From Lytechinus variegatus (lineage: Eukaryota > Echinodermata > Echinoidea > Temnopleuroida > Toxopneustidae): a stretch of 64,000 nt of DNA. Shown in pieces: positions 25,501-28,500 of this stretch. The stretch lies in assembly GCF_018143015.1 (NCBI RefSeq), contig NC_054751.1, forward strand, positions 32,378,347-32,442,346, given 5' to 3'. The position numbers were made by a program, and so were the translations under genes. Within the stretch, counting starts at the first letter, position 1. The number at the start of each line of letters is the position of its first letter. Under the pieces are notes generated by a model. The model searched no databases. It was not told the DNA's origin and worked only from the letters and a program-made list of their open reading frames with translations.

Positions 25501-28500
25501 TTCACTTTTCAAAAAATTTATTTCACTTTTCAAAAAAATATATTTCACTTTTCAAAAAAAATATATTTCACTTTTCAAAAAAATATATTTCACTTTTCCC
25601 CCCCAAAAAAATGTTTCACTTTTCCCAAAAATTCATTTCACTTTTCAAAAAAAAAATTGTCGACGAAGAATCATTTCACTTGTTACATTTTAATTTTGAG
25701 AGAAAACAAATCCTTTCACTTTTTATCTACAAATCTATATATCTGTCTCTTTATCTATCTATCAATCAGGGGCCGTGGAACGGTTTTCAAAGTGGGGGGG
25801 GGGACGTATATACCATGCAAAAAATCACAGTCATATGGTCATACGTTTTTGTACACGGTTTTTGAAAAAAGTGGGGGGGGGGGGCGGGGGGCCACTTCCA
25901 CGCACGAGTGGATACCATGCGCGACCATGGGGTCTCGAAAATGCACCCTAAACACGTAATTTCCATATTCTGAAAGTGCACCCCTTAACAAGTATTGGCG
26001 AGTGAAACCCTACCCTTAACATGTGTTGGAAACAAAACGACACTCTTGGCAAATATTCCCTGAAATGAACCCCTAAACAAGTACAGGAATGTTTTATTGT
26101 TACGGGTCCCTCGGTCGTCGGCTTTACCTTATTTGGTTTAGTACGATCCCAGCTTCTACACCTCGCGCAAATCGGACTCTAAACGCGAAGTATTGGGGAA
26201 AAAAGGACATCCTTTATAAAACATTTTAATTTTGTTTTATCACCCCCGCAAATTCGACCCTTAACACGTAATTTTCCTAGCGAAATAGATACCCTTTTTT
26301 CATTATTTTTGTGTTTTTGACACTCTTATCACGTTACGTACGTAACGTGCCCTATCGTGAAAAAGACATCCTTTTTACGTGTTTCTTTGGTCGCGCATGG
26401 TATCCACTCGTCAATGTAAGTGGCCCCCCCCCCCGGGGGGGGGGGGGTGGGCTGAAGCCCGGCCAGATCCAACTTCCGCACCCCCTGTTATATGTATCTA
26501 TCTTTTATTAATCTATCCACCTATCATTTATCTCTCCAGCCATCTATCTATTTATCTATCTTTCTTATATGTATCTGTTTGAATGCGTATGTCTGTTTGT
26601 CTATTTATCTTTCATACTTATATCCACTCATTTGTTTAAATAATTATGTATGTTTATCTCTGTATCTACGACAGACCAATTAATTCGTCCGCACGACGAA
26701 TTAAAATCTTATTTCATTTGGTACATTTTAAATCTGAGATCAAACAAATCCTTTCACTTTTGTTGGATAACACATACGGCTGCAGTATTAGACCAGGGAA
26801 GTGTTATGTAGAACACTTCCCTGATTAGACCGTAAGTAAATTTCGCTCTTCACGTAAATATCCATTCCTCTCGCTACGAAAAACATTTCACTCATGTTGC
26901 AAATTCATTTCACTCAATTGCAAAAAATACGTTCCTCTTTTTTCTCGGCCTGTAGGCGGCGCACACCATTGTTGGTGGGACGAGGAGGTACGATCACTGA
27001 TCTCTCCCCTAAGAGAGATCAGTGGGTACGATCAATCACTAACCTTAGCACGGTCTGGCTATACGTTTTGTAGGCATGAGGCATGAATACTTCATACATA
27101 CACTATCTACGGAGCTGAATGGTCAAGGTATAAGTGTTGAAATTTCCCTTTTCTCCCTTCCGTCTGTCTTTTACTTCATTGACATACGATGGTCATAATG
27201 ATTGATGAAATGAAGCTTACAAAAAGCTTCATTTCACTGGTCAACTCGCTTGTACCTGCACTGCAAAACCAAATTCTCTCCATTTTGTATGAGACATGAA
27301 TGGGGGGTCACCATCCTTAGAACAGACACGGGACTGAAGTTGGGTAATGACATGGACATTCTCGGCTAACACCACAGAGATGTATACTAATTGCGAATTA
27401 TAAGTGTCTCTATGGCTAACACCAACCTTTTCGGGCTGAGCGATGACGTCATCATCCAACTTCAGTCCCGAATACTCACTTTTTATGTCTGTTCTAAAGA
27501 TGGTGAACCCCTCCCCCTTATCATGTCTCGGACAAAATGGAGAGAATTTGGTTTTGCAGTGCAGGTACAAGTGAGTTGACCAGTGAAATGTAGCTTTTTG
27601 TAAGCTTCATTTCATCAATTATTATGACCATCGTATGTCAATGAAGTAAAAGACAGACAGAATGGAGAAAAGGGAAATTTCAACACTTATACCTTGACCA
27701 TTCAGCTCCGTAGATAGTGTATGTAAAAAGCATTCATGCCTCATGCATGCCTACAAAACGTTATAGCCAGACCGGCCGTGCTAAGGTTAGCGATTGATCG
27801 TAGGGCCGAATGCAACAGCTGATTGCCCTGGCAGCTGTGTATTATCAGCGATAAATTCAAACTTTACAATTTGTGTTTATGGGCCCACCTCGTGGTGCAT
27901 TGTCCTCGTCCCACCAACAATAGTGTGCGCCGCCTACAGGCCGAGAAAAAAGAGGAACGTATTTTTTGCAATTGAGTGAAATGAATTTGCAACATGAGTG
28001 AAATGTTTTTCGTAGCGAGAGGAATGGATATTTACGTGAAGAGCGAAATTTACTTACGGTCTAAGTACTGCAGCCGTATGTGTTATCCAACAAAAGTGAA
28101 AGGATTTGTTTGATCTCAGGTTTAAAATGTAACAAGTGAAATTAGATTTTAATTCGTCGTGCGGACGAATTAATTGGTCTGTCGTAGATACAGAGATAAA
28201 CATACATAATTATTTAAACAAATGAGTGGATATAAGTATGAAAGATGAATAGACAAACAGACATACATATTCAAACAGATACATATATAACAAAGATAGA
28301 TAAATAGATGGCTGGAGAGATAAACGATAGGTGGATAGATTAATAGAAGATAGATATAGATAGATAGATATATTAACAGGGAGCGCGAAAACTGGGGGAG
28401 GGGGGCTTCAGCCCTCCCCCCACACTTTTTTTCTGAAACCGTGTACAAAAACGTATAAATGACCATATGATTGTGATTTTTTGCATGGTCTCCCCCCCCC

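Follow-up and report, generated by a model that had tools for sequence, protein, structure and literature searches.

Two 30-nt hairpins in the genome of Lytechinus variegatus very probably mark sites at which a cut-and-paste transposon inserted and was later excised, the stubs of its two ends being joined to one another. The hairpins, here designated HP1 and HP2, lie 171 bp apart within a foldback element in the window, the stretch of 64,000 nucleotides analysed in this work (C12:32378347-32442346, in a genome of 869,567,369 bases). In the mechanism proposed, a cut-and-paste DNA transposon would insert with a duplication of 7 or 8 bp, and the transposase would later cut each terminal inverted repeat (TIR) in a staggered manner, about 18 nt in from its outer end, so that about 18 nt of transposon end would be left on both broken chromosome ends. 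End joining would then trim and seal these ends, giving the order target-site duplication (TSD), stub, stub, TSD; as one stub is the inverted repeat of the other, the product would be a hairpin. The features concerned are given below in window coordinates.

26442..28421, no strand: foldback element hosting HP1 and HP2
26787..26793, no strand: left 7-bp TSD of HP1, ATTAGAC, which 22 of the 43 foldback arms compared have once only
26794..26823, plus strand: HP1, a probable excision scar that joins 18 nt and 12 nt from the two ends of a CAGGGAAGTGTTATGTAG... transposon
26824..26830, no strand: right 7-bp TSD of HP1, ATTAGAC
26987..26994, no strand: left 8-bp TSD of HP2, GGTACGAT
26995..27024, plus strand: HP2, a probable excision scar that joins 18 nt of a CACTGATCTCTCCCCTAA end to 12 nt of a CACTGATCTCTCCCTTAT end
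27025..27032, no strand: right 8-bp TSD of HP2, GGTACGAT
27803..27902, minus strand: segment of about 100 bp carried by the opposite arm and by further copies of the foldback; the left arm of the window lacks it where HP2 sits
28059..28065, minus strand: HP1 empty site of the foldback's opposite arm, reading CTTAGAC, one base off the duplicated 7-mer ATTAGAC

Flanked hairpins of the window

Re-scanning of the window confirmed the coordinates, stems, loops, CA...TG ends and direct repeats reported for both hairpins in an initial annotation of this DNA. Each is 30 nt long with a 12-bp stem and a 6-nt loop, and is enclosed by exact direct repeats of 7 bp (HP1, of the family with CAGGG ends) or 8 bp (HP2, of the family with CACTG ends). 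CNNM exons at 3175-4584 and 24475-25050 lie to the left of the hairpins.

A scan for stems of at least 9 bp, loops of 3-14 nt and flanking repeats of 6-10 bp returned eight rows: besides HP1 and HP2, a GAT microsatellite (1359-1384) accounted for two and a palindromic tandem array (20641-20694) for four. The hairpins of the array were weighed as a possible third case but discarded, since the repeats on either side of them belong to the tandem palindromic array as its units. This part of the window (20609-20793) is made of overlapping palindromes from GAACTTCACCGGC-type units with CTAG-centred hairpins, and a related stretch is found at 20127-20219. A second scan, for stems of at least 10 bp and loops of 3-12 nt, gave 38 perfect hairpins against 1.31 expected, though many of the 38 are within AT-rich or palindromic tandem repeats. 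The flanking repeat gave the more telling control: none of 100 dinucleotide shuffles contained a hairpin (stem at least 10 bp) with a flanking repeat of 6-10 bp, and in the real window hairpins so flanked, other than HP1 and HP2, occurred only in tandem arrays.

Hairpins at 27206-27236 (in both arms of the foldback element) and at 55167-55195 (CA...TG) have no TSD and were left uncounted. The first of these is a 31-nt hairpin, TGAAATGAAGCTT-ACAAA-AAGCTTCATTTCA, without flanking repeats, and its copy in the opposite arm has one mismatch. Viral contigs scanned for either hairpin gave no match, and neither did a plasmid scan for the region or Rfam and tRNA scans of the window.

Comparison of foldback copies

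The core stretch of the foldback element was found at 40 scored genome places (167 candidates), two of which are within the window. At the HP1 site 43 arms were compared, taken from 20 fetched stretches and the window, and the hairpin was present in one, the window's own. The exact empty site, cagtATTAGAC with a single copy of the 7-mer, was observed in 22 of the 43, while the remaining 20 also have no HP1 hairpin but differ in sequence at this position. By this check of gain against loss, HP1 at least is a gain.

The opposite arm had been put forward as an empty site for both hairpins. This is borne out for HP1, apart from the one different base in that arm, with the exact site in other copies; it does not hold for HP2, where the opposite arm carries about 100 bp that are missing from the window's left arm, so that the control applies to HP1 only. 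Among 57 matches to the HP2 flank, 43 start the segment of about 100 bp, 13 have an unrelated flank and one is the window's left arm; the deletion of about 100 bp presumably came first and the insertion second. Within that same part of about 100 bp, another foldback copy (L034) has a CACTG-type scar, which is flanked by the 8-bp repeats GGTGGGCC and contains a tandem filler.

Longer elements with the same ends

The search for longer elements with matching ends, as the initial annotation had proposed, proved to be the decisive test and found the parents of both HP1 and HP2. The 18-mer end of the HP1 family, CAGGGAAGTGTTATGTAK, occurs at 51 genome places, and five head-to-head pairs of it enclose elements that measure 1367-1950 bp, have TIRs of about 40 bp and are flanked in all five cases by exact 7-bp TSDs. 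These elements are 95-99% alike outside one extra stretch in the 1950-bp member, L089. By eye, this extra part resembles an interspersed repeat of about 550 bp that is present in the window at 25879-26434, 13054-13600 and 17146-17724 (85-92% alike). A 134-aa frame in the 1.4-kb CAGGG elements (L090:196-600) shows a weak PHD/RING-like pattern of cysteines, no match reaching the cut-off.

The 18-nt end of HP2 occurs at 183 genome places, and in 19 of 20 sampled it runs on into one common long sequence; flanks are shared among three of the 19. The one copy traced to its other end (L126), the direct parent of HP2, is 2478 bp long with the 8-bp TSD AGTCAGAT and contains no ORF longer than 110 aa; the parent is likely a non-autonomous element with P-type ends. 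A relative at C18:10141023-10144385, 3363 bp long with CACTGATCT ends and the 8-bp TSD GGCTAGCA, contains the P-transposase domains PF12017 and PF21787 (E 1.4e-20) in a frame broken by a stop. The two profile models, PF12017 and PF21787, had 28 and 42 matches in the genome, respectively, several of them in long open frames.

Thus, an element of the same end type as HP2 encodes a P-type transposase, and the 8-bp TSD is common to the scar and its parents. Judged from this CACTGATCT-ended relative, HP2 is most likely a scar of the P-superfamily end type. The CAGGG family duplicates 7 bp, unlike the 8 bp of the Drosophila P element, and for HP1 we therefore claim no P-superfamily membership but a comparable mechanism, which we infer because the anatomy of the two scars is alike. 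The CAGGG ends (44 positions of the 51, as the exact 18-mer, some second ends being left out) all lie more than 500 kb from P-domain matches, and a CAGGG transposase was absent from four P loci with 1.5-kb flanks and from the 1.5-1.6 kb upstream of six more P matches.

These results bear on the suggestion, made in the initial annotation, that the hairpins are hAT elements reduced to their TIRs. The CAGGG and CACTG ends recall that group, as does the 8-bp TSD of HP2, hAT duplications being 8 bp long; however, the CACTG ends go with a P-superfamily transposase, whose domains lie within the CACTGATCT element, and the CAGGG TSDs are 7 bp, so that a hAT affinity finds no support and is extremely improbable.

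Copies elsewhere in the genome

The HP1 stem, with any loop and at most three mismatches, was found at 12 genome places, and the control pattern at none. Eight of the 12 have a perfect stem, all with exact 7-bp TSDs, and seven of these also share the loop, and hence the identical 30-mer. As two HP1 copies have flanks in common, the independent sites number seven for the perfect stem and six for the identical 30-mer. Among the other four places two were read, of which L018 has a 7-bp repeat and L017 has none. The HP2 stem was found at 10 places (control 0), with exact 8-bp repeats at seven, a repeat with one mismatch at L044, and no TSD at L041 and L047.

A broader pattern was made of the outer 9 nt of both ends, separated by an inner gap of 0-30 or 31-60 nt. 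With the shorter gap (total length at most 48 nt) it matched 89 places for CAGGG (control 0) and 230 for CACTG (control 1). With the longer gap (49-78 nt) it matched two places for CAGGG (control 1), one of which is no more than an HP1 copy and an adjacent scar taken together; for CACTG it matched 13 places (control 0). Among the matches listed (50 of the 89 CAGGG and 50 of the 230 CACTG places), those outside a tandem array are 18 to 45 nt long, so the identical 30-nt geometry noted at first for HP1 and HP2 is no rule; their common length would reflect cuts at much the same distance from the end, with chance agreement on the shorter side.

The TSDs of 41 scars were read in listing order, a few places being passed over. 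For CAGGG scars a 7-bp TSD was exact in 14 of 21 and had at most one mismatch in 20 of 21, with none at 8 bp; for CACTG scars an 8-bp TSD was exact in 12 of 20 and had at most one mismatch in 18 of 20, with none at 7 bp. No acceptable TSD was seen at L063, L084 and L085 among these sampled scars. Cross-paired flanks, used as a control, matched exactly in 2 of 420 CAGGG and 0 of 380 CACTG pairings, and the two matches presumably come from L050 and L051, two of the 21 CAGGG scars, which share flanks. TSD length is thus family-specific across the 41 sampled scars.

The tandem array, which holds 19 of the CACTG places listed, is located at C2:446726-447639 and consists of at least 19 copies of a CACTG-type scar of 38-39 nt, spaced mostly at 46-47 nt, that is, the scar plus 8 bp. 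It is apparently a minisatellite seeded by the TSDs of an excision scar. Elsewhere, 29 bp away from an HP1 copy, there is a 19-nt scar with 7-bp repeats GTGTTAT (L011:1453-1471) that retains about 14 nt of one end and 5 of the other; the counts given above therefore miss scars that keep fewer than 9 nt of an end. As the patterns demand at least 9 nt of both ends, outcomes with flank loss or deep loss of an end are invisible to them.

Limits of the retained ends

Matched to the parental ends, HP1 comprises 18-20 nt of one end and 12-10 nt of the other, the position of its junction being ambiguous by 2 nt, and HP2 comprises 18 and 12 nt. The longer retained end was at most 20 nt in 39 CAGGG scars and at most 18 nt in 22 CACTG scars, in both cases under a pattern that allowed 39. 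The CAGGG set was made of 36 of the 50 places listed (of 89), 14 with other end types being dropped, together with L011, L015 and L094. The CACTG set was made of 17 of the 31 places outside the array among the 50 listed (of 230) and five sequences from the HP2-stem search; the 14 dropped for other end sequences include one exception, a 42-nt scar at C1:42903433 that reads CTGGATA past position 18. In the sets examined the stubs of both families are thus bounded at 18-20 nt within a longer TIR, apart from this 42-nt exception. Since CAGGG ends match up to 20 nt, the cut could be at 18, 19 or 20.

The commonest CAGGG products among the 50 places listed are 26 nt (six) and 24 nt (five) long, and their junctions fall on the 2-nt overlaps AT and TA. 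Some longer scars contain fillers resembling the ends (a 45-nt scar; L034). From their sequence, the fillers and 2-nt overlaps appear compatible with NHEJ or alternative end joining. The size limit, the overlaps and the fillers are as expected of a transposase that cuts one strand deep in the TIR, and both hairpins are therefore read as excision scars. What speaks against this reading is that no CAGGG transposase was found near the ends and P loci searched, that the 42-nt CACTG scar continues past position 18, that 13 CACTG places are above 48 nt, and that a TSD is missing from some of the sampled places.

Other origins were weighed against these data. The initial annotation had described the hairpins as two terminal repeats and almost nothing else, which is correct in form, and had considered them either extreme deletion derivatives of transposons or very small inserts of another origin; the upper limit of the retained ends points to scars of staggered excision rather than to mobile deletion derivatives. 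Transposase could move two abutted ends as a minimal element, and the identical HP1 30-mer at six independent sites, like the exact 7-bp TSDs of all eight perfect-stem copies, would fit such mobility. Against it, the listed scars show many lengths and junctions (18-45 nt), the repeated products fall on short overlaps, as recurrent end joining predicts, and 30 bp would be without the internal sequences that the Drosophila P element requires, to go by the title of Kaufman 1989, which PMC7776569 cites. Because the other junctions vary, recurrent end joining is thought likelier, and a mobile 30-mer is decidedly unlikely; were it real, HP1, only two abutted ends, would be among the smallest animal transposable elements.

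Internal deletion of long elements in situ, through slippage or hairpin processing, would account for junctions with repeated 2-nt overlaps and for the 13 CACTG places above 48 nt. It is disfavoured as very improbable by the steep drop in counts above 48 nt and by the stop of the retained ends at 18-20 nt in the sets examined, for which a deletion process gives no reason.

An aborted insertion, in which cleaved ends join the target and the body is then lost in gap repair, would leave stubs that do not exceed the single-stranded end in length. It predicts the same TSD, stubs and size limit, and sequence alone cannot tell it from excision. Excision, however, is an established reaction and no observation calls for a failed insertion, so that this course is held to be unlikely. 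We infer excision rather than failed insertion, together with the polarity of the overhang and the end-joining pathway.

Discussion

If HP1, HP2 and their relatives are excision scars, the genome would hold hundreds of natural repair products from near-identical breaks with overhangs of about 18 nt and known sequence, from which germline joining (overlap preference, fillers, trimming) could be read without a cross or a transgene. P-type elements would have been repeatedly excised in the L. variegatus genome, copy-number surveys would overlook sites surviving only as scars, and a scar would be able to seed a minisatellite, as in the array on C2. No report of a genome-wide natural set of such scars came up in searches of open-access literature.

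P elements are known to leave footprints of this sort, and those of D. melanogaster consist of joined TIR stubs; new here are a non-insect member, the limit of 18-20 nt, a family with 7-bp TSDs and the scale of the natural set. The Drosophila P element is cut 17 bp inside a 31-bp repeat and has an 8-bp TSD, and its excision is repaired via homologous recombination or NHEJ, as described in PMC7776569. As in D. melanogaster, the TSD is kept and the TIR stubs are end-joined and bounded by a long stagger (17 nt there, PMC7776569); unlike there, the limit is 18-20 nt, one family has 7-bp TSDs, and many natural scars in the reference genome of another animal take the place of laboratory excisions. 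Zebrafish Pdre2/THAP9, in the account of these elements in PMC10983969, likewise represents the P superfamily beyond insects, with an 8-bp TSD and ends starting with CA, but has a 13-bp TIR. Zebrafish THAP9 excision deletes flanks according to that account, whereas most of the scars sampled here keep their TSDs, the search seeing only scars with both ends.

The scars resemble MITEs in being short, with inverted repeats and TSDs, but they are far shorter, have no interior and differ in junction from copy to copy, with no sign of a stub moving. In the footprints of Stowaway and mariner elements, too, a small duplication and short sequences of the element ends stay behind, according to PMC4561436; those end remnants are short, whereas up to 18-20 nt of an end are retained here.
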